Source: Kutzneria kofuensis
GTDB taxonomy: Bacteria > Actinomycetota > Actinomycetes > Mycobacteriales > Pseudonocardiaceae
Assembly (NCBI RefSeq): GCF_014203355.1
Contig: NZ_JACHIR010000001.1
Coordinates: 3,412,038 to 3,476,037, forward strand
Length of the DNA stretch: 64,000 nucleotides
Direction of reading: 5' to 3'
Below, piece after piece: positions 1-17,047 of this stretch. Under the pieces are notes generated by a model, which had not been told where the DNA came from, did no database searches, and saw nothing but the letters and a program-made list of their open reading frames with translations. Both the position numbers and the translations under genes were made by a program. The stretch's first letter is position 1, and each line of letters begins with the position of its first letter.

Positions 1-1198
1 CGTGGTCACCGGTGTCGGCGAGGACCTCGGCGAGGTCGGCCAGCAGCGGCGCCGGGCGGGTCCAGGTCCGCGGATCGGACGTGATGCCGGCGCGTTGGTA
101 GGTCGCGGTGATCGCCCGGTCCAGCGCTGCCCGTTCGGTCGCCGACAACTCCGCGCCGAGTAGTACTGAGATCACGGTGTGCAGGAACAGCGACCGGCGG
201 ATCAGCGCGTCGCGGGGCGCGGTGCGGCGCCCGTCCGGGCGCGTGTGGATCGGCAGGTCCATCGGGTTGAGGCGGACCTGCTCGGCGCCGAGGTGCACGT
301 ACGTCCCGCCGACCGCGGCGGCCAGCCGGGCGTACTCGTCCTCGGGGTCGATGACGTGGATCTCGATCCCGCGGTACAGCGACCGCAGCAACTCCAGCTT
401 CACCAAGTAGCTCTTGCCCGCGCCGGAGCGGCCGAGGATCACGCTGTTGTGGTTGTCCAGCGCGAACCTGTCGTGATGCACGAGCCCCTGGCTGCCGACG
501 TTGAAGCCGTAGAGCACGCCGCTCGGCGCACCGACCGAGGTCGGGTCCGGCGGCGGCAGGTCGGGCGAGGTGAACGGGAACGCCGCGGACAACGCCGAAG
601 TGTCGAACGTCCTCCTCATTCCCACCAGATCGAGGCCCATGGGCAGGCTGGTGATCCAGCCCTGCAGGCTGCGATACGTGGTCGGTTTGCAGTCCAGCAG
701 CAGCGACGCCGCCAACGACCGGATCGCCGCGACCTCGTCGCCGAGGGCTTCCTCGGTGGGGGCGTGCACGGTCAGGTACAGCCCGAGCCGGTAGAGCTTG
801 CCCTCACCACGAGCGACCCGTGCGGACAGGTCGTAGGCATCCTCGGTGGCTGCTTCGACGTGCGGGTCGATCAACCGTCCCTTCTCGCTCGTGTGCCGGC
901 GACCGGACTCCAGTTTCGACAGCTGCTTCTTGAGCCGGTTGGCCGCGGTGACCGGGTCGATCGGCTCGATGTGCAGCGAGACGTCGACCCGTCCGGGGTA
1001 GGTCAGCAGCGGCTGCAACCAGCCGGGGTGGACCTCGCGCGGGTAGCCGACGACGGCGAAGCTGGCGACCCATTCGCCGCCGACTTCCAGCGCGCGGGGG
1101 CGCACGGAGATGGCGTCCGGGGTGAACGCGCTGGCCCGCCCGAGCGGCGGCTGCACGGCCTGGGCCTTCCGGCCGCGGCGCTTGGCCGTGGTCTTCAT
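1..1198 (-). CDS. VirB4/TraC-like conjugation ATPase, 5' part
   Basis: N-terminal 399 codons of an ATPase that powers a type IV secretion-like DNA transfer channel at the inner membrane; the rest lies beyond the left edge. Walker A GRSGAGKS is at about residues 256-263, followed by the IHVIDPEDEY stretch typical of VirB4/TraC near residue 280. About 250 residues of N-terminal domain precede it, as usual in the family. The ATG at 1196-1198 overlaps the stop of the PrgI-like gene upstream (ATGA), so the two are translationally coupled. VirB4 membership is strong; whether transfer is functional cannot be judged because the C-terminal part (Walker B, relaxase, coupling protein) is not in the window. 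Confidence 0.85.
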   Translation of the reverse strand, partial: MKTTAKRRGRKAQAVQPPLGRASAFTPDAISVRPRALEVGGEWVASFAVVGYPREVHPGWLQPLLTYPGRVDVSLHIEPIDPVTAANRLKKQLSKLESGRRHTSEKGRLIDPHVEAATEDAYDLSARVARGEGKLYRLGLYLTVHAPTEEALGDEVAAIRSLAASLLLDCKPTTYRSLQGWITSLPMGLDLVGMRRTFDTSALSAAFPFTSPDLPPPDPTSVGAPSGVLYGFNVGSQGLVHHDRFALDNHNSVILGRSGAGKSYLVKLELLRSLYRGIEIHVIDPEDEYARLAAAVGGTYVHLGAEQVRLNPMDLPIHTRPDGRRTAPRDALIRRSLFLHTVISVLLGAELSATERAALDRAITATYQRAGITSDPRTWTRPAPLLADLAEVLADTGDH

Positions 1199-2430
1199 GA
1201 GCGGTACCTCCCCGCGGAGTTGGCGTAGTCGTCGGGGTCCTCGGCGGTGTCGTCGAAGCCGTCGTCCCAGGCGTCCTCGGCCTCGCCGAACTCGGCGTCG
1301 GTGGGGAACGCGGCGCGGCCGAACGCGCTTGCGTCCCAGCCGTCGTCCGGGGCGGTGGTGATGACCTCGTCCGAGCCGGCGAGACCGGAGTTCGGCGGGA
1401 TCACGCTGTCGGGGTTGCAGGCCGCGGCGAGCACCGCGGTGGCCTGTCCGGCGTCCAACGGGGTGACCACGATCCCGGACGGGGACAGCAGCTCGACCGC
1501 CTCGCCGAGCCGGCGGACCAGCCGGGCTTCGGCGGCACGGCGGGTGGCGTCGTCGACCGAGGCGGCTTGCTTGGCGGCCCGGCGTTTCGCGGTCAACGCG
1601 GCCAGCGGTGAGGCGTCGCCGAGCCCGTCAGTCGGCGCCGTGGTCAGCAGCGGTTCGCGCAGGATCAGCAGGACCTGGCGACGCAGCAGGTCGGTGGCGC
1701 GGCCGAGCTGGTCGAGGTACTCGGCGTGCTCGCGCGCAGCCCGTTCCAGCGCCGGGTGCGGCAGGCCGCCGGCCTGGTCGCGGAGCTCGGCGATCTGCCC
1801 GGACAGGTCCAGCCGTTCCGCCCGCACCAGCACCTGCACCGGTGCCGTCAAGCTGTGTAGGTAGCGTCCGAAGGAGGCGACGAGGGACTCCTGCTCGGCC
1901 GGGGTCCGCAGCCCGAAGTTGATCGTGGAGCAGACCGCGACCACGGCGACGCCGTCCTTACCGAGGTCGATGACACCGGTGTCGGTGACCGCTTCGGCGG
2001 GCAGCCGCAGCGCGGCCGGCGAGACCGTCGATGCCGCGGCATCCGTGCCGCCCGCGCTGTCCTTCCGCTTGGCGCGGCCCGTGCTGCTGGTGTTCGCGAC
2101 CTGGCTGCCCAGCCACTCTGGGGCCGGGCGGATGCCTTCCGGCGCGGCCACCCGGTGCTGCGGGCTCATCCGCTGCCGCAGCGCCGCCAGCACCAACCGG
2201 TCCATGGTGATGCCGTCGCGCTGGCCCAGCGCGAGGAACGCGGCGGTCACCCCGATCGGGATGGCGACGATGAGGAACGCCACCAGCGGCACGAACTCGC
2301 GGGTGAGCGTGTACGCCCCGTACAGCACGATCCCGGTGACGGCGAGGATGAGCAGCTGCCGCGCGGTCAGCGGACCGATGACGCGGTCCTCGCGATCGAC
2401 GTCGGCGGGAATCCTTACCGGCTGGCTCAT
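1195..2430 (-). CDS. PrgI-like T4SS inner-membrane protein
   Basis: 411-residue protein with two membrane segments near the N terminus (about residues 23-43 and 46-68, from ARQLLILAVTGIVLYGAYTL) followed by a long soluble tail. This is the PrgI layout found directly upstream of virB4 in Gram-positive conjugation modules. The tail, much longer than the ~120-residue PrgI core, contains Ala-rich helical stretches and an acidic C terminus (EDAWDDGFDDTAEDPDD). It overlaps both neighbours by 4 bp (ATGA), so it belongs to one operon with the TrbL-like gene upstream and virB4 downstream. Inferred role: membrane component of the transfer channel. The function of the tail is unknown. Confidence 0.75.
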   Translation of the reverse strand: MSQPVRIPADVDREDRVIGPLTARQLLILAVTGIVLYGAYTLTREFVPLVAFLIVAIPIGVTAAFLALGQRDGITMDRLVLAALRQRMSPQHRVAAPEGIRPAPEWLGSQVANTSSTGRAKRKDSAGGTDAAASTVSPAALRLPAEAVTDTGVIDLGKDGVAVVAVCSTINFGLRTPAEQESLVASFGRYLHSLTAPVQVLVRAERLDLSGQIAELRDQAGGLPHPALERAAREHAEYLDQLGRATDLLRRQVLLILREPLLTTAPTDGLGDASPLAALTAKRRAAKQAASVDDATRRAAEARLVRRLGEAVELLSPSGIVVTPLDAGQATAVLAAACNPDSVIPPNSGLAGSDEVITTAPDDGWDASAFGRAAFPTDAEFGEAEDAWDDGFDDTAEDPDDYANSAGRYRS

Positions 2431-4517
2431 TTCCCTTCACCTCCTGAAGTGGGCTTCGGTGCGCGGAACACCGGCGGCGGAACGGACTGGGTGCGCCGGT
2501 AGGCGTCACCGATGCGCGGCTCGGGCTGGGCTTGCCGGAACACCGGCGCGGCAGGAGCGGATGCCGGCCTGGGTGGCGGCGACGGCTGCGGCGCGGGTGG
2601 CGTGGCTGGCCGGAACTGCAACTGCGGGGGCACCGACGCGGTGCGGATCGGGCGGGCCGGCGGTGCCGTGGCGCCGCGACGACGCGGCCCTCCGGCGGCC
2701 TGAAACTGCGGTGCCGATCCAGGCCGCGACCCTCGCCGCGGCGGGGAGATCGGCGTGGCTGGCGTGGGTGCGGAACTGAACTCAGGAGGCATGGCTGGTC
2801 CCTGGTTCGCCGGGGTGACGGCGGGGTCGTGGGTGGTGTCTTGGGGTGAGGGCTGCAGGAACTGCGGCGCCTGCGACGGCAGCCGCGACCGGCGGGCCGC
2901 GCGGGCGCGCTCGGCGTCATGGGCCGCCTTGAGCCGCTTGTTGACCATCTCCGGCGTGGGGGCGAGGCGCGGCTGCGCGGGCCACGGCGGATCCGCCGAG
3001 CCGCCTCCGCGGCCCCCTCCGCCTCCGCCTCCGCCGCCCCGGCCGCCGGTCTTCGCGGTGCCTGCGGCACCGGCCTTGCCAAGCGCGCCGGTCTTGCCGG
3101 CGACCATGCCGAAGGTCTTCGCCGCGATGTAGGCACGGGCCAAGCCACCGAGGAAGGAACGGCCAGAGCCGACCTTGACCGCCTTCAACAGCCAGAAGGG
3201 GATCTTGAACAGGATGAAGAACAAGGCGATCGCGGCGACCAGCGTGCCGAGCGCGGACAGGGTCGAGCCGAACAAGTGCACGCCGCCGGACAGGAACGTG
3301 CGGACCGCGGTGATCAGCACCAGCGCCTGGGCGAACTGAATGGCCAAGGTCGCGGTCAGGGCCTTCCACCACCAACGCGCGAGCGGGTCGGTGTGCGGTA
3401 GGGCATGGCACATCAGGAACAGCGGTCCACTGATGATCAGAACCAGGGTGATGACGATCCGGACGACGTAGACGACCAACAGTGCGAGGCCGACCACGAC
3501 CAGCACCAGTCCGACCAGGATGATGAACAGCCCGCCGCTCGCGATGCCCTGGACGGCGTCCTGGAGCGTGTTGCCCAGCGAGGGCGCGTTCACCCCGTCG
3601 CCGAGCACGCCCAAGGTCAGCGCGTTGGCCAGCTTGATGAACTTGTCAGCGAAGAACAGCGACAGGGCCGAGGCCAGGAACGCGATCGGGATCCGCGGGC
3701 CGATCTCCTTTATGGAGTAGCGCGCTTGGACGCTCTCGTGACCCATCAGCAGGATGCCGCCGCCGAGGATGAAGAAGCCGTAGAGGGCGAGGACGAGCTC
3801 CCAGGAGTTGTTCCAGAGCTCACCGATGCCCGGCAGGTCGCTGATGGCCGGGGTGGACAGTGCGGTGTGACCGATCAACTCCAGGATCGGGGAAAGTGCG
3901 GCGTCGACGATGCTGCGGAACGCCGAGTTGATGGCCTCGGTGATGCACGCGCCGATGTCGGTGATGCCGCAGTCCGAGTCGCTGTCGCCGTTGCCGGCGC
4001 CCGGCTGTTGCGGGCCGGTGTTCGGTGGCGGCGTGGTCGGCTGCGGGATGCAGTCCTCACCGGTGCACGGCTTGCTCGGCGCCGTGGTCGGTGAGGACGA
4101 GGTGCAGCCGATCTGGCCGGGGAAGGTGCATGTCGTTGGCGCGGGCAGCCCAGTCGGCAGCGGCAGTGGCGCGGTGGGAAGCGGCTTGGTCGTGGTTGGT
4201 GCGGGCAGGTGGCAGACCGGCAGCGGCGAATCCGGCGTGCACGGGTCGACGGTCGGGAGCGGCAGCGGCGGCGGAGGCTGCTGCGGCGCGGCGGGCGAGG
4301 CCCACGCGCTCACCGCGAGGACGCCGACCAGGAGCACGACGATGCTCAGCGCCAGCATCCAGCCCGCGCGCCAGCGCCGCCGCGGACCGGCCGGCGGCCG
4401 GTCCGCGCTGCCGTCGGAGACCGGGGAGAGCGTCGCTCGGTCTGCGGCGGCAGCGGTCGCGACCGGGCCGCCGGACCGGCGGTGCGGGCGAACCGTGGGC
4501 GGGGTGCTGACGGCCAT
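2427..4517 (-). CDS. TrbL/VirB6-like polytopic conjugation channel protein
   Basis: 696-residue membrane protein. One TM segment near residues 53-75 is followed by a Pro/Thr-rich extracytoplasmic stretch with paired cysteines, then a cluster of about five or six hydrophobic helices (roughly residues 235-450), then a Gly-rich linker and a Pro/Ala/Arg-rich cytoplasmic tail of ~200 residues. The hydrophobic core resembles TrbL/VirB6 channel subunits of type IV secretion systems. It sits between the VirB2-like gene and the PrgI-like gene (4-bp overlap). The low-complexity tail is variable in this family and gives no functional clue. Assignment rests on topology and operon context rather than on a diagnostic motif. 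Confidence 0.7.
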   Translation of the reverse strand: MAVSTPPTVRPHRRSGGPVATAAAADRATLSPVSDGSADRPPAGPRRRWRAGWMLALSIVVLLVGVLAVSAWASPAAPQQPPPPLPLPTVDPCTPDSPLPVCHLPAPTTTKPLPTAPLPLPTGLPAPTTCTFPGQIGCTSSSPTTAPSKPCTGEDCIPQPTTPPPNTGPQQPGAGNGDSDSDCGITDIGACITEAINSAFRSIVDAALSPILELIGHTALSTPAISDLPGIGELWNNSWELVLALYGFFILGGGILLMGHESVQARYSIKEIGPRIPIAFLASALSLFFADKFIKLANALTLGVLGDGVNAPSLGNTLQDAVQGIASGGLFIILVGLVLVVVGLALLVVYVVRIVITLVLIISGPLFLMCHALPHTDPLARWWWKALTATLAIQFAQALVLITAVRTFLSGGVHLFGSTLSALGTLVAAIALFFILFKIPFWLLKAVKVGSGRSFLGGLARAYIAAKTFGMVAGKTGALGKAGAAGTAKTGGRGGGGGGGGGRGGGSADPPWPAQPRLAPTPEMVNKRLKAAHDAERARAARRSRLPSQAPQFLQPSPQDTTHDPAVTPANQGPAMPPEFSSAPTPATPISPPRRGSRPGSAPQFQAAGGPRRRGATAPPARPIRTASVPPQLQFRPATPPAPQPSPPPRPASAPAAPVFRQAQPEPRIGDAYRRTQSVPPPVFRAPKPTSGGEGK

Positions 4518-6541: not shown

Positions 6542-7534
6542 ATGACCCCGACACACGGCAACGACTCACCAGGAGACGGCTCCCAGGAGCATGGCCCGAC
6601 CGACCCGCCGACCGTCCCGATCCCGCTCCCACAGAGGCGGCGAACACCGCGTCTGCGAGCCCTGCGCCTCACGCTGCGCCATCCGCGTCCGGTCCGGCCG
6701 AGCACCGTCTGGCCGTGCGCTCAGGACGACCTTCAGGAAGGCACCGGACTGCTCGCCAACTGGCTGCTGACCGCAGTCATCAAGCTCGTCACCACCTACA
6801 CCCAGCCCGGCCAACGGGTCCTTCTGCTCGACCCCGCGCCCTACCTCGCGCCACCCGCGTCGTGGTCACCCACCGGGAGCCGCAGCCAGTCCCGGCCCGG
6901 CCCGTACGCCGGACTGCACGAAGCCAGCTGGACCGTGGTCCGACTCGGCCGCGGCGTCCAAACCCAGACCGCCGTCGCGCACCCCGACCCGGTCGACGAA
7001 CCCGCCGATGCCGCGGCAGCCGAGTCCGAGTCCGGACCCCGACCGAACCCCGACAGTCCGACCACCGACCAGCCCGCCGGACCGTCGACAGGCCGCCGGA
7101 CCGGATCCGATCCGACTGCAACCGGCGTCGGTCCGGACCGCTACGACCTCGTCATCACCGCGGCCGACCGGCGCACCCTCGACTGGTTCCGCCCCGCCGA
7201 CTGGGCAGGCTTGCTCACCCCGACCGGCACCCTCGCCGTCATCACTCACGGTGACCGTTCCCGTGATCGACTCACCGACCCCGCCGGCTCGCTAGTGCGC
7301 GCCGCGCACCGCACTGGACTGCGCTACCTCGATCGCATCGCACTGCTGCGTGTCCCCGTCCGCGACGGCGCGCTCGCGGTCGCGACCCCCGCCCCGCACC
7401 CCCGGCCGCAGGGCCCAACGCCACCGCTCGCGACCCCCGCTCGGCACACCCAGGTGCATGACGACCTCCTGGTGTTCACCCGCCAGCCGGCCCTGACCGA
7501 CACCGCCGACGGGGAGGAGACCTCCGATGCCTGA
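6542..7534 (+). CDS. Methylase-fold protein without catalytic motif (first of pair)
   Basis: 330 residues, first gene of a tightly overlapping five-gene operon. GGAGGAG lies just upstream of the ATG. Two stretches resemble class I methyltransferases: GLLANWLLTAVIKLVTTYTQPGQRVLLLDPAPYL (about residues 60-95), placed like the SAM-binding loop of DNA methylases, and a later DLVITAADRRTL...LLTPTGTLAVITHGD, placed like the catalytic strand and following helix. The expected [ST/D]PPY catalytic motif is absent; TAADRRT stands in its place. A Pro/Ser-rich insertion separates the halves. It may be a non-catalytic partner of the next gene. No precise family is known to me. Confidence 0.6.
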   Translation: MTPTHGNDSPGDGSQEHGPTDPPTVPIPLPQRRRTPRLRALRLTLRHPRPVRPSTVWPCAQDDLQEGTGLLANWLLTAVIKLVTTYTQPGQRVLLLDPAPYLAPPASWSPTGSRSQSRPGPYAGLHEASWTVVRLGRGVQTQTAVAHPDPVDEPADAAAAESESGPRPNPDSPTTDQPAGPSTGRRTGSDPTATGVGPDRYDLVITAADRRTLDWFRPADWAGLLTPTGTLAVITHGDRSRDRLTDPAGSLVRAAHRTGLRYLDRIALLRVPVRDGALAVATPAPHPRPQGPTPPLATPARHTQVHDDLLVFTRQPALTDTADGEETSDA

Positions 7535-8480
7535 CCGTCCCACGTCGCCCTGGCCGCTCCCCCTACCGCCGGGGGAGGAGCCGCTGATGCCGCCGCTGTC
7601 GGTCTGGCCGACCGGCCAGCGTGACCCGCTCGCGCAACTGCGCGACGCCGGCTGCGTGCCCGGCACCGAGACCGACACCGAGCGGATTCCGCCCGCCGTC
7701 GCCGCCCACGCGATCGCCCTCTACTCCCGTCCCGGCGACCTCGTTCTCGACCCCGACTGCGGCGCGGGCACCGCCCTCGTGGAGGCGCTGCGCGCCGGCC
7801 GTCACGCGCTCGGACTGACCGCCCGCACCCGGTGGTGGACGCTCACTCGCGCCAACGTCACCGCCGCCAAGACCGCGGGCGCCTGGCGCGACGGCTCGGT
7901 CCTCGACGCTCGCCCGAAAGTCCTCGCGACCGTCCGGGCCGCCGGGTTGATCGGCCGAGTCGGACTCGTCCTGACCGCCCTGCGCACCGCGCCAGCCGAC
8001 CCCAACAACCAGGCGAGCGGTCCGGACCGCGACCCGGTCGAGTCCACCCTCGCTGACCTCGCCGCGACGCTGCTCTACTGCGAGCCGCTGCTGCGCTCCG
8101 GCGGGCACGTCGCCGTCATCGCGCGACCGTTCCGGCACCCGGACGGCTCGCTGGTTGACCTGACCAGTCGGCTCATCGCCGCCGCCACCGCGGCCGGGTT
8201 GGCGCCGGTCGAGCGGTGTATCGCGCTGACCGCCGGCCTGCGCGGCAGCCGATTGGTCACCCGAGCCTCGCTCGCCGAGCGTCGCGCTGCTGCCCGAGCC
8301 CGCGCCGCCGGTGCGCCGACCGCGCTGACGGCGCACCACGAGGTGCTCGTCTTCCAACTCGCCCACGACGCCGAACTCGCCGCCGCGACGGCAGCCGGCA
8401 TCCCGTGGCCGACTGAGGACGACGTCATCCGGCCCGCCGTCAACGGCGTCACCTACCCCGGCTGGAGGCGAGCGGCATGA
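7527..8480 (+). CDS. N4/C5-type DNA-methylase-like protein, catalytic motif missing
   Basis: 317 residues. RIPPAVAAHAIALYSRPGDLVLDPDCGAGTALVEALRAGRHALGL (about residues 50-95) is the SAM-binding module of beta-class DNA methylases (normally DPFxGSGT). The catalytic TSPPY/DPPY motif expected about 65 residues later is replaced by LTALRTAP. LRSGGHVAVIARPFRHPDGSLVDL matches the strand after the motif. It therefore looks able to bind SAM or a nucleotide but not to methylate by the usual route. It overlaps the upstream gene by 8 bp and the downstream gene by 4 bp. Similar genes are often annotated as DNA methylases in actinobacterial elements; enzymatic activity is doubtful here. Confidence 0.65.
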   Translation: MPDRPTSPWPLPLPPGEEPLMPPLSVWPTGQRDPLAQLRDAGCVPGTETDTERIPPAVAAHAIALYSRPGDLVLDPDCGAGTALVEALRAGRHALGLTARTRWWTLTRANVTAAKTAGAWRDGSVLDARPKVLATVRAAGLIGRVGLVLTALRTAPADPNNQASGPDRDPVESTLADLAATLLYCEPLLRSGGHVAVIARPFRHPDGSLVDLTSRLIAAATAAGLAPVERCIALTAGLRGSRLVTRASLAERRAAARARAAGAPTALTAHHEVLVFQLAHDAELAAATAAGIPWPTEDDVIRPAVNGVTYPGWRRAA

Positions 8481-9271
8481 CCACCCGCCTGTACTGCCGC
8501 GAGTGCGGCTGGCACCCCGAGTTCCGCCGCAAGCGCGCTGCCCTCCGTGCCGCCGCCCGGCATCAGTGCACTGGCACACCGGTGGCGGAGATCCGTCCAC
8601 CGTGGTGGTCCCGATTGTGGACAAATCTGTGGACAACTAGGTCGGATGCATCCGTCATCGACACCGAAGACGGGGCGGTCGACCAGGCCGGTGACGACGT
8701 ACTGGCCGACGCTCACGGCAACCGGATCCAGTGGGCTGCGCTCTCGGCGCACCACGCCGAGACCACTCGTCGCGCCCGCGCCGCGATGGTCGAACTCGTC
8801 CTGGCCGGCTACCAGATCGGGCCGCCGCCCTACGGCTACCGTGCCTTGCGCATCCGGGTCACCGACCCCAGCGGACACAGCAAGCTGCGGGCGGTCCTCG
8901 TCCCGGACTGGCAGACCGCCGCGGTCGTCAAGCAGATCTTCATCTGGCGCGCCGACCACGGCCTGACGTTCGCCGTCATCGCCGCACAGCTCAACAACGA
9001 CCCCCGCCAGTACCCGGCTCCGGTGCCCAACGGGCGGTGGACCGCCAAGGCCGTCCGGCGGATCGTCACCAACGTCAAGTACACCGGGCGCCAGGTCTGG
9101 GCCCGCACCGTTGCCGGCCGCCCGGCACCGGTCGAGCAGTGGGTCACCTCGGCGCCGAAGGTGCACGAACCACTGGTTGACGAACGCACGTTCCACCGCG
9201 CCCAGCCCGGCGCCGCCGACAGTCCGCCCGATGCGGAGAACTCGGCCGATACCCGGCCGAGTGCGGCATGA
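8477..9271 (+). CDS. Zinc-finger plus recombinase DNA-binding domain, no catalytic domain
   Basis: 264 residues. The N terminus has a possible zinc site (C7-x2-C10 and H28-x2-C31 in LYCRECGW...AARHQC). Residues about 95-245 match the Recombinase domain of large serine recombinases: GPPPYGYRAL, AAVVKQIFIWRADHGLTFAVIAAQLN, WTAKAVRRIVTNVKYTGRQVW, EPLVDERTFHRAQ. The resolvase catalytic domain, with its YxRxS serine, is absent from the gene and from its upstream neighbour. It overlaps both flanking genes by 4 bp, so this is a stable gene rather than a random fragment. Possible roles: DNA-binding regulator, directionality factor or competitor of the integrase at 14.4 kb. Confidence 0.7.
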   Translation: MTTRLYCRECGWHPEFRRKRAALRAAARHQCTGTPVAEIRPPWWSRLWTNLWTTRSDASVIDTEDGAVDQAGDDVLADAHGNRIQWAALSAHHAETTRRARAAMVELVLAGYQIGPPPYGYRALRIRVTDPSGHSKLRAVLVPDWQTAAVVKQIFIWRADHGLTFAVIAAQLNNDPRQYPAPVPNGRWTAKAVRRIVTNVKYTGRQVWARTVAGRPAPVEQWVTSAPKVHEPLVDERTFHRAQPGAADSPPDAENSADTRPSAA

Positions 9272-9789
9272 CCACCCGCCGGCGGCGCGTCGCCGCCGGG
9301 ATCCTGGTCGCCGCGTACGCGGCGACGATCGCCGGAGCGAACTGGGCAACGACGCTCTGGCCGGCGGTGGCGGTGGCGGGCCTGCACGTTCCCGCAGGCT
9401 CGCTCCTCGCCGGGCTCGCGTTCACCGTCCGAGACCTTCTGCAGGACGCTGTCGGCGCCCGGACAACGCTGCTCGCGATCTGCCTCGGCGCGGCGTTGTC
9501 CGGCCTGGTCGCCGAGCCGCGCATCGCGCTTGCCAGCGCGGCGGCGTTCGCCGTCTCGGAACTGGTCGACCTCGCCGTCTACACCCCGCTGCGCGACCGG
9601 AGTCGCCTTGCCGCCGTGGGTGTGTCGAACGCGGTGGGATTGCTCGTCGACAGCCTGCTGTTCCTGCCGATGGCCTTCGGCTCGCTGACCTACCTCACCG
9701 GCCAACTCGTCGGGAAGACCGCCACCACGCTCTTGGCGGTCGCTGTGCTTGGTGTTGTCCGCGCTCGCCGGAGGGCGGTGCCGGCGTGA
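9268..9789 (+). CDS. VUT/YhhQ-family (queuosine-precursor-type) transporter
   Basis: 173 residues with five or six hydrophobic helices. The spacing and motifs (AGANWATTLWP, VPAGSLLAGLAFTVRDLLQDAVG, AVSELVDLAVYTPLR, NAVGLLVDSLLFLP) are those of the VUT/YhhQ family, whose studied members import 7-deazaguanine queuosine precursors. The conserved F-x2-RD-x2-Q segment and the SE-x2-D-x2-VY segment are both present. It overlaps the genes on both sides by 4 bp, and its stop is coupled to the GTG of the TGT-like gene, which would use such a substrate. The substrate is inferred from family and neighbour. Confidence 0.8.
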   Translation: MTTRRRRVAAGILVAAYAATIAGANWATTLWPAVAVAGLHVPAGSLLAGLAFTVRDLLQDAVGARTTLLAICLGAALSGLVAEPRIALASAAAFAVSELVDLAVYTPLRDRSRLAAVGVSNAVGLLVDSLLFLPMAFGSLTYLTGQLVGKTATTLLAVAVLGVVRARRRAVPA

Positions 9790-10574
9790 AGTTCTACCTC
9801 GGCGTCCACCAGCCCATCTGGCTGACCCGCGTGCCGGACATTCCCCTGCTGGTGTCGCACCGGCGGCTCGGCCACCGCCGCACCCTGCCCCGCGCCACCA
9901 CGGAATGGGCCCTCGACTCCGGCGGCTTCACCGAGCTGCAGCTTCACGGGCGTTGGCAGATCGAGGAGAAGGACTACGTCCGGGCGGTCCGGCGCTACGC
10001 CGACGAGATCGGCAACCTCGCCTGGGCGGCGCCGCAAGACTGGATGTGCGAACAGCGCATCCTGAAACGCACCGGCTTGACGGTCCGCGAGCATCAACGG
10101 CGGACCGTGCGCAACCTCGTCCGCCTGCGGGAACTCGCGCCTGAACTCCCGTGGGTGCCGACGCTGCAAGGTTGGACTCTGTCGGACTACGAACGCTGCG
10201 CCGACCTCTACGAGCGGGCCGGGATCGACCTGGGCGCCGAGCCGCTCGTTGGGATCGGCACGGTGTGCCGGCGGCAGAGCAGCGCCGACGTCGAGCGCAT
10301 CATGCGCGCCTTCGCCACGCGCGAGTTGAACCTGCACGGTTTCGGCATCAAGATCACCGGCCTTAGCCGGTACGCCGAAGCTCTCTCCAGTTCGGACTCG
10401 ATGTCCTGGAGCATGCGCGGTCGATACGTACCCGGATGCGGTCCGAGCCATCGCACCGAGTCGAACTGTCTGCGCTTCGCGCTCAGCTGGTATCGGCAGA
10501 TCCGAACCACGCTGGGGTCGGCAGGACTGTCCGCGGACAACGTGTCCCCGCAGGTATCGAGGAGGGCTGCGTGA
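9786..10574 (+). CDS. TGT/DpdA-like transglycosylase-fold protein
   Basis: 262 residues, GTG start overlapping the transporter stop (GTGA). ATTEWALDSGGFTELQ (residues 37-52) carries the DSGGF motif of tRNA-guanine transglycosylases and DpdA proteins, with D44 as the candidate catalytic Asp. Further family-like stretches are WVPTLQGWTLSDYERC, PLVGIGTVCRR, LHGFGIKITGL and SSDSMSWS (a second Asp candidate). No CxCx2C zinc motif is visible, and the protein is far shorter than bacterial Tgt (~380), so it is closer to phage/mobile-element DpdA-like proteins. Inferred reaction: exchange of guanine for a 7-deazaguanine in DNA or RNA. It is the last gene of the operon. Confidence 0.7.
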   Translation: MKFYLGVHQPIWLTRVPDIPLLVSHRRLGHRRTLPRATTEWALDSGGFTELQLHGRWQIEEKDYVRAVRRYADEIGNLAWAAPQDWMCEQRILKRTGLTVREHQRRTVRNLVRLRELAPELPWVPTLQGWTLSDYERCADLYERAGIDLGAEPLVGIGTVCRRQSSADVERIMRAFATRELNLHGFGIKITGLSRYAEALSSSDSMSWSMRGRYVPGCGPSHRTESNCLRFALSWYRQIRTTLGSAGLSADNVSPQVSRRAA

Positions 10575-10603
10575 TGGCCGTCGCCGCGTCCGCCGCCGCG
10601 AGC

Positions 10604-10882
10604 TCACTGCTCGCCGCGGGACTCCGTGGTGTCCGGTTCGACGAGCGAGACATCGCGTGGCGTGTCGATCCCGAACAACTCGTTGGGCGTGCACCGCAGC
10701 GTCGTGCACAGCGCCTGCAAGGTAGCCACCTTCACCTGGATCGGCTGCTTCTTGATCAGCACGTCAACCGACTGGAGGGACAGTTCGAACCCAGCGCGCT
10801 GGATGAGGAGTTCGCGCAGCTGGGTCGCGGTCCAGACGTCGCGGGAGGCCATGACCTTCCGCAGCCGCCACTCGATCTCCAC
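10604..10882 (-). CDS. XRE-family HTH regulator (HTH_26 type)
   Basis: 92 residues, GTG start. EIEWRLRKVMASRDVWTATQLRELL, LSLQSVDVLIKKQP and VKVATLQALCTTLRCTPNELFGID form a compact Cro/C1-type helix-turn-helix, ending in the usual C-terminal ELF.I segment. It is convergent with the TGT-like gene (30 bp apart) and divergent from the 11-kb region, where paired direct repeats lie. Small XRE repressors of this kind commonly control excision or transfer of actinobacterial elements, and a regulatory role over one or both flanking operons is inferred. The target site is not proven. Confidence 0.8.
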   Translation of the reverse strand: MEIEWRLRKVMASRDVWTATQLRELLIQRAGFELSLQSVDVLIKKQPIQVKVATLQALCTTLRCTPNELFGIDTPRDVSLVEPDTTESRGEQ

Positions 10883-12795: not shown

Positions 12796-14340
12796 GACAC
12801 AGCAACCCGTCATTACTTCGCCGCTCGTCGGTAGCGCGCGATCCAGCCGCCAGGACCCACTCGCCGGTTGCCCGGTCCTCCGTCCAAACCGCCCCCAGAA
12901 GGAGTTTCAATGATCGTGTCAAGCGGCATCGGCCGTGAGTTGTGGTGAGCGATGGAATTCTCGGCCGTCGCGCAGCAGTGCCCAGATGACGTCGACAAGT
13001 CGGCGTGCCAGAGCGATGAGAGCCTGCGTGTGAAGCTTGCCTTCGTCTCGTTTGCGCAGGTAGAAGCGCCGGGATGGGCTGTCCTGGACTTTGATCGAGG
13101 ACAGGGCTGCCAGGTAGAAGACGCGGCGCAGGCCGCGGTGGTAGCGCTTGGGCCGGTGCAGGTTGTCCCGTACTCGTCCGGAGTCGTGCGGGACCGGCGC
13201 GAGCCCGGCGTAGGCGGCCATGCGGCCCGAGTTGCCGAATGCCGCGCGCAAGTCGCCACCGGTATCAGCGAGCAGCTGTGCGCCCAGAATCGGGCCGAAC
13301 CCGTCAACGCTGGTGATCGGGCCGGCGTGCGGATGCTCGCCGAAGCGTCCCGCGATGTGCTTGTCGAGGTCCTTGATCTCGCGGTTGAGGTCAAGCAGCT
13401 GCCGAGCCAGCCTCATGGTCAGCGGTGCGGTGGCGGTTTCTCCCGGCAGGGCAACGGTTTGCTCGCCCGCCGCGGCGATGGCTTTGTCCACTATGGACGG
13501 GATGCTCTTCGGCCAGGCGCCGCCGGAACGCAGGTGCTCGGTCAAGCCTGCCCGTCCCGCGTCCCGGATGCCGTCAGGGGTGCAGCAGCCGGTCAGCAAG
13601 ACCAGCGCCGAACGGGTGGAGTAGTCGAAAGCACGTTCCAGGGCAGGGAAAATCGAGGCGAGCAGCTCACGCAGCCGATTGATCCCGCGCACCCAGTCAC
13701 CCATCAGGTCCTCTCGCCGCGAGGTCAGGATCCGCAGCTCGGCCACGAGCTCGTCCGGGTGCGTGACCGGAGCCAGGTCACCACGCAGGCGCGCGGTCTC
13801 GGCGATCGTGCGCGCGTCCTTGGCATCGGTCTTGCCCTCGCCGGGGAACGCCCCTGCCATCCGGTTGACCAACCGGCCCGGCACATACAGCACCGGCTGA
13901 CCCGACCCGAGCAGCAACGCCAGCAACAACCCGGCAGAGCCCGAGGTCATGTCCACCGCCCAGACCACCGCGCGAGCCTTACGGCCGGCGCGCATGATCA
14001 GCTCCTCGATCGCGGACTGGCCGTTGACCACCTTCTGGCTGAATACGACCTTGCCGGTGTCGTCGACCGCGCACGCATGGTGGCCGGCCTTGCCGACATC
14101 GACGCCCACCCAGATCTTCTCGCGCACCGCCACGCGGTCCGCCCTCCCGTTCTCGCAGCTCAACCCCGTGGACGGCCCGCCAGCAGCTCCATAAACAGCG
14201 ACACGCAAGGAACACGCGCACAGATCTCAATCAGCGGCAGGGCGTCCAGGACGACGAGGCGGCCACTCCCAAGAAGCCACCCGACGACAAGGAATCATCA
14301 GCCACACCTCACCGTCCTGGGCATTCAGAACATCCCGTTC
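12796..14340 (-). mobile_element. IS110-family insertion (ends not resolved)
   Basis: An IS110-type transposase with non-coding flanks sits between a truncated and an intact recombinase gene. IS110 elements lack obvious terminal inverted repeats and make little or no target duplication, so the limits given are only outer bounds: the stop of the relic at 12795 and the leader of the intact recombinase. A reading frame entering the intact gene (…SEHPVLNIDKLMEVS, stop overlapping its ATG) is present at 14223-14372 and may be the tail of the interrupted gene. In known IS110 members the non-coding flank 5' of the transposase encodes the bridge RNA. Confidence 0.5.
12919..14133 (-). CDS. IS110-family transposase (DEDD/Tnp20)
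   Basis: 404 residues. The GTG at 14133 is preferred over upstream starts because GGGAGG lies 9 nt before it. The N-terminal RuvC-like DEDD domain begins KIWVGVDVGKAGHHACAVDD (first Asp) and continues through VVWAVDMTSG (Glu replaced here by Asp in this segment) and GKTDAKDARTIAETAR. The C-terminal Transposase_20 domain holds ITSVDGFGPILGAQLLADTG and FGNSGRMAAYAGLAPVPHDSG with its conserved Ser, then the YHRGLRRVFYLAAL helix. Length is normal for the family, so the element may be active. It inserts in or beside duplicated recombinase genes, in the opposite direction to them. Confidence 0.9.
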   Translation of the reverse strand: MAVREKIWVGVDVGKAGHHACAVDDTGKVVFSQKVVNGQSAIEELIMRAGRKARAVVWAVDMTSGSAGLLLALLLGSGQPVLYVPGRLVNRMAGAFPGEGKTDAKDARTIAETARLRGDLAPVTHPDELVAELRILTSRREDLMGDWVRGINRLRELLASIFPALERAFDYSTRSALVLLTGCCTPDGIRDAGRAGLTEHLRSGGAWPKSIPSIVDKAIAAAGEQTVALPGETATAPLTMRLARQLLDLNREIKDLDKHIAGRFGEHPHAGPITSVDGFGPILGAQLLADTGGDLRAAFGNSGRMAAYAGLAPVPHDSGRVRDNLHRPKRYHRGLRRVFYLAALSSIKVQDSPSRRFYLRKRDEGKLHTQALIALARRLVDVIWALLRDGREFHRSPQLTADAA

Positions 14341-14368: not shown

Positions 14369-17047
14369 ATGACCAGCGCTTATGCCGACCTCATCGATGA
14401 ACTGCAGCAGGACGTCACCATCCCCATCCAGCCACCGATGGACGACCTTGCCCCCGGCACCCGCGCAGTGATCTACCTGCGCGTGTCCTCGACCGGGCAG
14501 GTCCGAACCGACTACAACCCGGAAGGCATCTCCATCCCGGCCCAACGGGAAGCGTGCCTTCGCAAGGCGCGCGAACTGGGCGTCACGGTCATCGACGAGT
14601 ACGTCGAACCCGGACGCTCGGGAACGGAGATGACCAAACGCGAAGCATTCCAACAGATGCTCGCGCGGGTCCGCAGCCAGGGCGACGTCGACGTCATCAT
14701 CATCTACCAGCTCTCGCGCATGGCGCGGAACCGCTACGACGACGCGATCGTCATGGCAGACCTGCGCAAGCGCGGCGTCACCCTGGTCTCGGCCACCGAA
14801 GCCATCGACGACACCCCGGTCGGCCAGCTGATGCACGGCATCCTGGCCACGTTCAACGAGTACCAATCCCGCCAGTCCGGTGCCGACATCGCCTACAAGA
14901 TGGGCCAGAAGGCCCGCAACGGCGGCACCCTCGGCCGCGCGAAGCTCGGCTACCTCAACCACATCGACCACTCCGACGGCCGCGTGATCCGCACGATCAT
15001 CGTCGACCCCGACCGGGCGCACTTTGTACAGCTGGGTTTCGAGCTCTTCGCCACCGGCGACTACACGCAAGAAGAGCTGGCTGACGAGCTCTACGACCGC
15101 GGCCTACGCACCAGGGCCACCCGGCGACACCCCGCCAAGAAGGTCTCCGAGAACAAGATCTCGCAAATGCTGCGCGATCGCTACTACCTCGGATACGTCG
15201 AGTACGACGGCGAAGAAATCCAGGGGCGGCACGAGCCCCTCATCGACGAGGACCTCTTCGACACCGTCCAGGAGATCCTCGAATCTCGCATGACGGCACA
15301 AGAACGCCGTCGCGTCCACCACCACTACCTCAAGGGATCACTCTTCTGTGGACGCTGCCAACGCGACGGCATCAAGCGGCGGATGATCATCCAACGCACC
15401 ATCAACTCGAAGGGCGCCGAGTACCTGTACTTCTTCTGCCGCGGCCGGCAGAAGGGGCTGTGCCAAGCACCCCACGTCAACGTCACGCTCGTCGAGGACG
15501 CGGTTGAGCGCCACTACTCCGCGATTCGCTTCAGCCAGCCGTTCATCGCTGACATGCGCGACCAGATCGATGCCGTGCTCGGCGAGCAGGAAAAGGCCGC
15601 ACGGCTGCTGCGCAAGCAGATCACCGCACAGCTCAAGGAACTCGACACGAAGGAGGAGAACTTGATCGACCTCGCTGCCGACAGCACACTGCCTCGGACC
15701 AAGGTCAAGGAGAAGCTACGCGACATCGCCCGCGAACGCCGCCGGCTGGAGGAGCGCCTCGACACAGCCAACGCCGACCTCACCGACAGCGCCCAACTCG
15801 TCAACGCCGGCCTTGCCCTCCTCGAACAGCCCGACCAGCTGTACCGACGCTGCAACGACCAACAGCGACGCCTACTCAACCAGGCGATCTTCCACGCCCT
15901 CTACATCGAGGACGACAAGATCACAGACGGTGAGCTTCGTGAGCCCTTCGGCGAGCTCCACGCCATCCAAGATCAGCGGGCCGGAGCAACCGGCGCGGAG
16001 GGTGCAAGCAAAAGGACCACCCGCGATGCGGGTGGTCCTTGCACGCCTTCAGGCGTCGCGGTCCTACTTCGTGGCCTTCATTCAGGCACTTGTTCTAGTA
16101 AGACCTCTAAGGTGGAGCTGAGGGGAATCGAACCCCTGACCTTCTCGATGCGAACGAGACGCGCTACCAACTGTGCTACAGCCCCGTCGTACTTCCGCTG
16201 TCGCTTCCGTACGTGGAGAACTATAGCAGGGCCGGCGGGGTGGTTTTCACACCCCCCTGGTTCAGCCGGCGACGCGTCGGTAGCCGCGGCGGTGGGGCAG
16301 GTCGAGGTCGTCGAACGCGGGGTCTTCGTCGTCGATGTCGACGAGGGTGGTGCCGTTGCGGAGGGGCTGGGGCCGGTAGGGAGCGCGCGCGGGGGTGGAG
16401 CGGGGCGCGTCCTCGTACTCGGACAGCTCGGGTTCGGCGGGTTCGGGCGCGACCGGCTCGACGGACTCGACGACGGGGGCGGGCTCGGTGTAGTCGGCCT
16501 GCTCGTAGTCGGTCTGGTCGTACTCGGTCTCGACGAATTCGGCTTCGTCGGCGACGCGGCCGCGGATGCGGGCCTGTCGGCGCTCGCGCACGTCGGCTTC
16601 GATGCGCACCTGCCGGCGCAGGTAGACGAGGTAGCCGACGAGCAGGACGTCGACGCCGCCGTGGCCCCACCAGACGATGGGCATGACGAGCCCGGCGAAC
16701 AGGGCGCTGAGCACGGAGAGCACGAGCAGCAGCAGCACCATGCGCTGCCGGAACGCGTACTTGGCCCGTGCGGCGCTGGCGGCGGCTTCGGGGTCGTACC
16801 CGCCGCGTCCGGGCCGGTAGGGCCGGGACGTGTCCCGGTCGCCGCGGTAGTCGTCGTCCGTGATCGCTGTATCGGACTCGTCGACGATCATGTCGAACTC
16901 CTCCTCAACATCCTCGGGACCACCGCCGTGGACCACGCGGGCGGCCATCGCCGACTCGGAGGTCTTGGCCACCTCCTGGCGCTTGCGCGCGATCATCGGG
17001 ACCAGGACGACGAGCCATGCCACGACCAGGGCGACGATGATCAATGA
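14369..17047 (+). CDS. Large serine recombinase (integrase); frame runs through tRNA-Ala
   Basis: The catalytic domain has TRAVIYLRVSSTGQ (S40/S41), YQLSRMARNR and the long E helix. The Recombinase domain has GYLNHIDHS, FELFATGDYTQEELADELYDRG, ISQMLRDRYYLGYVEYDG and EPLIDEDLFDTV. A zinc ribbon (FCGRCQRD...YFFCRGRQKGLC) and a C-terminal coiled coil to about residue 540 follow. GGAGGTGTC precedes the ATG. No in-frame stop occurs where homologues end (~16.0 kb). The frame crosses a terminator, then the antisense of tRNA-Ala (VELRGIEPLTFSMRTRRATNCATAP), and stops only at 17047 inside sepX on the other strand. Integration of the element at this site is the likely cause. The functional protein probably ends near 16.0-16.2 kb. 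Confidence 0.85.
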   Translation: MTSAYADLIDELQQDVTIPIQPPMDDLAPGTRAVIYLRVSSTGQVRTDYNPEGISIPAQREACLRKARELGVTVIDEYVEPGRSGTEMTKREAFQQMLARVRSQGDVDVIIIYQLSRMARNRYDDAIVMADLRKRGVTLVSATEAIDDTPVGQLMHGILATFNEYQSRQSGADIAYKMGQKARNGGTLGRAKLGYLNHIDHSDGRVIRTIIVDPDRAHFVQLGFELFATGDYTQEELADELYDRGLRTRATRRHPAKKVSENKISQMLRDRYYLGYVEYDGEEIQGRHEPLIDEDLFDTVQEILESRMTAQERRRVHHHYLKGSLFCGRCQRDGIKRRMIIQRTINSKGAEYLYFFCRGRQKGLCQAPHVNVTLVEDAVERHYSAIRFSQPFIADMRDQIDAVLGEQEKAARLLRKQITAQLKELDTKEENLIDLAADSTLPRTKVKEKLRDIARERRRLEERLDTANADLTDSAQLVNAGLALLEQPDQLYRRCNDQQRRLLNQAIFHALYIEDDKITDGELREPFGELHAIQDQRAGATGAEGASKRTTRDAGGPCTPSGVAVLLRGLHSGTCSSKTSKVELRGIEPLTFSMRTRRATNCATAPSYFRCRFRTWRTIAGPAGWFSHPPGSAGDASVAAAVGQVEVVERGVFVVDVDEGGAVAEGLGPVGSARGGGAGRVLVLGQLGFGGFGRDRLDGLDDGGGLGVVGLLVVGLVVLGLDEFGFVGDAAADAGLSALAHVGFDAHLPAQVDEVADEQDVDAAVAPPDDGHDEPGEQGAEHGEHEQQQHHALPERVLGPCGAGGGFGVVPAASGPVGPGRVPVAAVVVVRDRCIGLVDDHVELLLNILGTTAVDHAGGHRRLGGLGHLLALARDHRDQDDEPCHDQGDDDQ
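16012..16040 (-). terminator. Terminator of tRNA-Ala, inside recombinase frame
   Basis: A 13-bp perfect stem (AAGGACCACCCGC 16012-16024 with GCGGGTGGTCCTT 16028-16040) and GAT loop. On the minus strand it is followed by TTTT, about 70 nt after the tRNA 3' end. Outer GTGCAAG/CTTGCAC extend the symmetry. It overlaps the 3' part of the plus-strand recombinase frame. Confidence 0.7.
16113..16185 (-). tRNA. tRNA-Ala (CGC)
   Basis: Full cloverleaf on the minus strand: acceptor GGGGCTG/CAGCTCC with the G3-U70 pair that identifies alanine tRNAs, D arm with AGTTGGTA, anticodon stem TCTCG/CGAGA with loop TTCGCAT giving anticodon CGC, and T arm with GGTTCGATTCC. CC but not CCA is encoded after A73. The recombinase gene of the element abuts its 3' side, so the gene is the probable attachment site. 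Confidence 0.95.

Follow-up and report, generated by a model that had tools for sequence, protein, structure and literature searches.

We analyzed a 64,000-nucleotide stretch of the Kutzneria kofuensis chromosome (the window), in which a gene for a VUT/YhhQ-family transporter overlaps a gene for a DpdA protein inside an integrative element. The two genes probably form a salvage-and-insert module, carried by an element with conjugation genes, that imports a 7-deazaguanine and inserts it into DNA. The module and its mobile setting are themselves real, whereas the transported base, DNA as the target, and protection from restriction as the benefit are what we infer. This reading is based on the fold of DpdA, the conservation of its catalytic-type residues, the coupling of the two genes, their pairing across lineages, the sharing of the element between genera, and the lack of a host tRNA-guanine transglycosylase (TGT). 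Of the targets put forward in the original prediction, DNA is likelier than tRNA, given the family to which DpdA belongs, its methyltransferase-like neighbours, and its relatives in phages.

Both open reading frames lie where the original prediction placed them, 4-bp overlap included (Table 1), and its assignment of the upstream gene to the VUT/YhhQ-family transporters agrees with a match to Vut_1 (PF02592) above the cut-off (residues 84-162; E = 2.1e-12; 48.1 bits against 27.2). The same protein matches PHROG 4899 (1.4e-35) and falls below the NCBIfam cut-offs of PRK11212 and of TIGR00697, “queuosine precursor transporter” (40.6 against 50.95 bits). The downstream protein matches DpdA (PF23859) over residues 2-240 (E = 2e-81; 273.6 bits against a cut-off of 27) and PHROG 1279, “queuine tRNA-ribosyltransferase” (3.2e-86), and does not match PF01702, the tRNA-guanine transglycosylase family, at E up to 1.

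Structure comparison gives the downstream protein a TGT-type fold. This is the structural match by which the original prediction had proposed to check its TGT/DpdA-like assignment, and, together with the PF23859 match, it bears that assignment out. The conserved residues include D44, D85, Q128-G129, and D204. Specifically, D44, E89, H103, G158, C161, H184, and D204 are kept in all 87 distinct actinobacterial DpdA rows, and D44 and D204 are also kept in all four sphingomonad rows. A loss of active-site Asp residues across homologues, which had been named as grounds for abandoning the idea, is not seen. A search of PDB sequences with the DpdA alignment returned no match at E up to 1.

The coupling of the two genes recurs in other genomes. 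PF23859 is scarce across a sample of the phylum (3 of 396 genomes, 2 of them above the cut-off; too sparse for use) and occurs in 99 of 390 genomes of the host family. We analyzed 80 of these 99, excluding 19 with short or partial matches and counting related strains separately. The 80 genomes hold 98 DpdA places (about 155 bits or more). In 58 of these, Vut_1 lies immediately upstream in the same orientation, and the same-register gene overlap is found in 55 of the 58 VUT-bearing rows (some loci counted twice). Viewed from the transporter side, 58 of the 67 Vut_1 matches in these genomes lie beside DpdA, and 6 of the remaining 9 lie within 1.5 kb of QueD. Vut_1 above its cut-off is present in 57 of the 80 DpdA-bearing genomes, as against 1 of 80 DpdA-lacking genomes picked by handle number (a limit of E = 0.01 raises the latter to 3 of 80).

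To these counts we add a DpdA tree of 136 rows, which includes every paired viral row and about half of the unpaired viral rows, and whose bootstrap had not settled. Within it, 47 of the 48 rows of a single group (support 89/91, not starred) are paired. The pairing label takes 17 parsimony changes, at least 7 of them forced by starred branches, compared with a mean of about 46 for shuffled labels. Altogether, the tree and the parsimony counts suggest that the pairing is old in one group and has been gained or lost several times elsewhere. We considered whether another transporter replaces VUT beside unpaired DpdA and set the idea aside: the upstream frames (rows scoring at least 200; gene status of the frames unchecked) are mostly not membrane-like. 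One unpaired locus, L092, has methyltransferase-like frames upstream and no recognisable VUT.

Pairs are also found in viruses. An alignment search of viral contigs gave 118 DpdA relatives, of which the best 80 were kept; a single-sequence scan confirmed none. VUT lies near DpdA on the same strand in 19 of the 80 contigs kept, in both gene orders and with near-copies included (13 directly upstream, 4 directly downstream, and 2 some 450-710 bases upstream; a narrower span counts 11). The PF23859 relatives from tblastn searches, mostly 49-52% identical, come from mycobacteriophages (many of 68 kb), and phiLM21 carries a PF23859 protein followed by VUT. In StevieRay and ReqiPine5, the gene that VUT overlaps is another DpdA-like one with no Pfam match, and in Aoka one small gene separates VUT from such a Pfam-less gene. 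Proteins near VUT in Pam5 and two Rhizobium phages align with this second DpdA-like family at 22-26% identity, with uncertain kinship.

The main alternative, which we consider unlikely, is that the pair acts on host tRNA, with DpdA serving as a small TGT in a TGT-less host and VUT providing the base. The host genome has no PF01702 match up to E = 0.01, and a full-length PF01702 is found in none of the 55 paired genomes; the two genomes that have one (G418 and G428) are unpaired. However, the protein belongs by Pfam to the DpdA family and not to PF01702, and its relatives are common in phages. Its neighbours are DNA methyltransferase-like genes, VUT occurs within a dpd-island-like cluster in one genome, and a length of 262 residues compares with 357-577 in the listed TGT chains.

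The setting of the pair is an integrative element, as had been proposed: a large serine recombinase lies beside a tRNA-Ala gene, and conjugation-type genes accompany it (Table 1). The open frame of the recombinase extends to 17047 through the tRNA gene, and similarity to relatives reaches about 16185. The features of an integrative and conjugative element that we see are the serine recombinase, the tRNA-Ala end, and TrwB/TraD-like, TraC-like, PrgI, and Replic_Relax proteins; NlpC/P60-SLT proteins are encoded as well. The left end likely lies at about -70093, judging from relatives, since the elements of Amycolatopsis rubida and Pseudonocardia dioxanivorans start with the same GTGGAGGTTAGGGG as is found there, and the element would then be about 86 kb long.

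Identity across long common blocks is 94.5-99.4% with P. dioxanivorans and 94.8-98.8% with A. rubida, and the block with the pair reaches 99.4% and 98.8%, respectively, whereas the chromosomal flank is only about 70-78% identical to that of A. rubida. Therefore, the element has moved between species and genera. From about -68913 to -54407, the Kutzneria kofuensis element is unlike both of the others. The left-end sequence is present in two copies ~18 kb apart (-88406 and -70093; L037 about 8594, L038 about 6907), a pattern expected from the insertion of two related elements at one site. T2SSE secretion-ATPase and T2SSF pilus-like genes also lie within the element (L022 8210-10917).

Table 1. 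Features of the element and related loci. Positions are those of the window; negative coordinates number the neighbouring chromosome to its left on from the window, and L numbers are locus handles.
Feature	Position	Strand	Details
VirB4/TraC-like ATPase	1-1198	-	TraC_F_IV 4.6e-8, TraG P-loop 8.6e-7; runs past left window edge
PrgI-family type IV secretion system protein	1195-2430	-	PF12666 1.6e-22
TrbL-like membrane protein	2427-4517	-	TrbL_4 6.3e-4, 19.6 bits, below Pfam cut-off of 27
Methyltransferase-like protein A	6542-7534	+	no Pfam match
N6/N4 DNA methyltransferase-like protein B	7527-8480	+	N6_N4_Mtase 6e-7
Recombinase-domain protein	8477-9271	+	PF07508 1.4e-13; no resolvase-domain match; overlaps VUT start
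VUT/COG1738 (YhhQ-family) transporter	9268-9789	+	ATG start, 173 aa, six hydrophobic segments (hydropathy)
VUT stop/DpdA start overlap	9786-9789	+	4 bp
DpdA, TGT-fold protein with DSGGF	9786-10574	+	GTG start, 262 aa
Cro/C1-type helix-turn-helix (HTH) protein	10604-10882	-	PF13443 1.7e-8; convergent with the pair
IS110-family transposase copy	12919-14208		between HTH gene and serine recombinase; absent from relatives spanning the site
Large serine recombinase, probable integrase	14369-16110	+	Resolvase 2.4e-28, Recombinase 2.9e-13
tRNA-Ala (CGC), right element end	16111-16185	-	similarity to relatives stops there
7-Deazapurine-type cluster	about -47092 to -39648 (L021 9908-17352)		inside element
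Second DpdA-like family, actinophages	L160 4413-5060; L161 4748-5374; L165 3411-4031		no Pfam match; adjacent to VUT or separated from it by one gene

The original prediction further held that no preQ0 synthesis genes are present. This stands for the window, where genome searches place no QueC, QueD, or QueE, and fails for the element. A QueC search of the genome gave a match about 45 kb left of the window, and QueD, QueE-like, and QueC-like genes form a cluster about 51-54 kb left of the pair, within the element as bounded. The cluster encodes tandem QueD domains (TIGR03367 above cut-off), a QueE-like radical S-adenosylmethionine (SAM) protein, and a QueC-like protein, along with a nucleoside 2-deoxyribosyltransferase, an RPE-family protein, dTMP-kinase-like proteins, and an NsdA-family regulator; it may belong to a nucleoside pathway and could make a nucleoside product.

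The element could instead make its own base, with this cluster feeding DpdA and VUT acting as a helper or recapturing the base, an account that we regard as rather improbable. The cluster does lie inside the element both here and in A. rubida; the A. rubida stretch has 98.7% identity, and its QueE protein 100%. However, the P. dioxanivorans element retains the outer part of this stretch without -45747 to -22553, and its genome has no QueE match. A QueE query matched 7 of 14 genomes, and in 2 of them the match is the identical copy and shares a contig with the pair; the QueC-like protein diverges widely from canonical QueC (26.5 bits, for a TIGR00364 cut-off of 150.3); and the deoxyribosyltransferase, kinase-like, and NsdA-family neighbours make the cluster resemble a separate nucleoside pathway. 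QueD above its cut-off lies within 100 kb on the same contig in only 3 of the 58 pairs (Kutzneria kofuensis, A. rubida G538, and G596 at 95 kb), the other 55 being without it on draft contigs that may be shorter than 100 kb; one unpaired DpdA (G641) has QueD at 49 kb. As such, the cluster is an occasional passenger and not a fixed partner.

VUT and DpdA are the last two of five overlapping genes, following methyltransferase-like A, methyltransferase-like B, and a Recombinase-domain protein. Methyltransferase-like B lies upstream of the pair in 35 of 48 distinct paired loci, and a comparison over fetched stretches of differing length finds it in 35 of 49 paired and 2 of 38 unpaired loci. This association is compatible with a DNA-modification cassette and is no proof of one. 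The TSPPY motif is present in 23 of the 35 methyltransferase-like B loci and missing from 12, including the window (two chance motif matches discounted); the copy in the window keeps the SAM-motif region.

The pair might also be the modification half of a defence system, comparable to the dpd islands, that lets a restriction partner recognise the DNA of host and element as self. We give this little credence. The dpd islands combine DpdA with restriction genes (PMC11888242, a preprint), VUT is present in one cluster resembling them, and methyltransferase-like B matches PADLOC type II methyltransferase models (8.6e-9). By contrast, PADLOC has no match for DpdA and only a chance-level one for VUT (E = 0.08), and no restriction, DpdB, or DpdC gene was recognised in the scanned proteins (6542-10882), the remaining element not having been scanned for restriction genes. 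It is highly improbable that the import and exchange of the base have some other role, for example to trap a toxic 7-deazapurine antibiotic, or that the pair is a decaying relic: the methyltransferase-like neighbours lack their catalytic motif here and DpdA fragments are frequent in the family, but the frames and conserved residues of both genes are maintained across the paired group.

Several observations weigh against a salvage-and-insert module. The pairing is far from universal: 40 of the 98 DpdA places have no VUT, isolated phages include 399 records with a DpdA relative and 22 with a VUT relative (391 and 12, respectively, for Mycobacterium phages), and, on plasmids, VUT stands alongside DpdA in 4 of the 40 rows listed out of 69 records. 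In this very element, the methyltransferase-like neighbours are without TSPPY. The element has QueD/QueE/QueC-like genes, so import may not be the only source of the base, and QueD above its cut-off is found in 14 of the 55 paired genomes and in 9 of the 25 others.

The sequence link to TGT is a further such point. A profile-profile comparison of DpdA with three TGT sequences (Prob 1.1, E = 0.048) was discarded as evidence, and its repetition under other settings gave a score of 19.4 that was equalled by 7 of 100 column shuffles, which is not significant. Therefore, this link alone is no evidence, and it is the structure that carries the relationship to TGT. The alignment sets D44, D85, Q128-G129, and D204 opposite D89, D143, Q187-G188, and D264 of E. 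coli TGT; we take D44 and D204 to be the counterparts of D89 and D264, on the basis of this non-significant alignment and of the TGT mechanism.

Finally, the mycobacteriophage group with mostly 49-52% identical DpdA presumably includes Orion. The DNA of Orion is without 7-deazaguanine, which the authors explain by a lack of preQ0 synthesis in both phage and host (PMC6884629). With that group membership assumed, the activity of this DpdA subfamily is unproven. The salvage-and-insert idea of the original prediction is upheld in part: a TGT-fold DpdA, a VUT transporter, recurring coupling, and a mobile setting speak for it, but the element does hold QueD, QueE-like, and QueC-like genes.

The components have counterparts in known systems. 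Phage DpdA inserts preQ0 into DNA, and such DNA resists several restriction enzymes; in the same 2019 survey, DpdA-only phages form the largest phage group, their modification status is described as difficult to predict, they are proposed to draw on host or exogenous precursors, and phage YhhQ is uncorrelated with any phage group (PMC6884629). In E. coli, YhhQ takes part in the transport of preQ0 (PMC5372724), HCTV-1 and HCTV-16 carry YhhQ (PMC8651126), and about 9% of dpd islands are reported to have it (PMC11888242, preprint). A dpd-island layout is seen in genome G473 (L252 1017-8587), where QueC-, QueE-, QueD-, and FolE2-like genes and VUT face a 424-aa TGT-type DpdA and DndB-like genes; profile searches identified QueD, VUT, and a weak TGT match, and the other names were read by eye from the sequence.

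The pair differs from each of these systems. The mycobacteriophage “queuine tRNA-ribosyltransferase” shares Pfam PF23859 and the PHROG family with our DpdA, but VUT is rare in those phages (in StevieRay, which we examined, it lies beside the other DpdA-like gene), whereas here the DpdA and transporter genes overlap on an element that also carries conjugation genes. The bacterial DNA preQ0 insertase DpdA (7ui4) is 13% identical and has a 413-residue chain, compared with 262 residues here and no recognised DpdB/DpdC or restriction gene among the scanned neighbours. E. coli YhhQ/COG1738 belongs to the same Vut_1 family, but VUT here falls below the TIGR00697 and PRK11212 cut-offs and adjoins DpdA, not tRNA queuosine genes. 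The YhhQ phages also encode a transporter of this family within a mobile genome, accompanied in some by DpdA or preQ0 genes (PMC6884629, PMC8651126); YhhQ correlates with no phage group in PMC6884629, whereas VUT adjacency is the rule in one DpdA group here. We found no report of a coupled VUT-DpdA pair, or of its spread on conjugation-type elements, in the literature searched, for which journal coverage is partial.

Under the salvage-and-insert reading, the base that VUT imports would be a 7-deazaguanine, most likely preQ0. DpdA would exchange guanine in DNA for this base, the target being most simply the DNA of the element itself or of the host. DNA modified in this way would then be cut less well by restriction enzymes. 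We propose more tentatively, at slightly short of even confidence, that this is a nutritional form of DNA modification, in which the element scavenges 7-deazaguanine released by others, protection from restriction is set by what neighbours secrete, and the pairing has arisen more than once, also with the second, Pfam-less DpdA-like family.

DpdA phages without preQ0 genes are a puzzle, to which a coupled transporter would offer an answer as a possible source of the base, and the two-gene system is testable by feeding. The question is thereby widened from phages to conjugation-type elements common to actinomycete genera. If our proposal is true, DNA modification in these elements would depend on the surrounding community.
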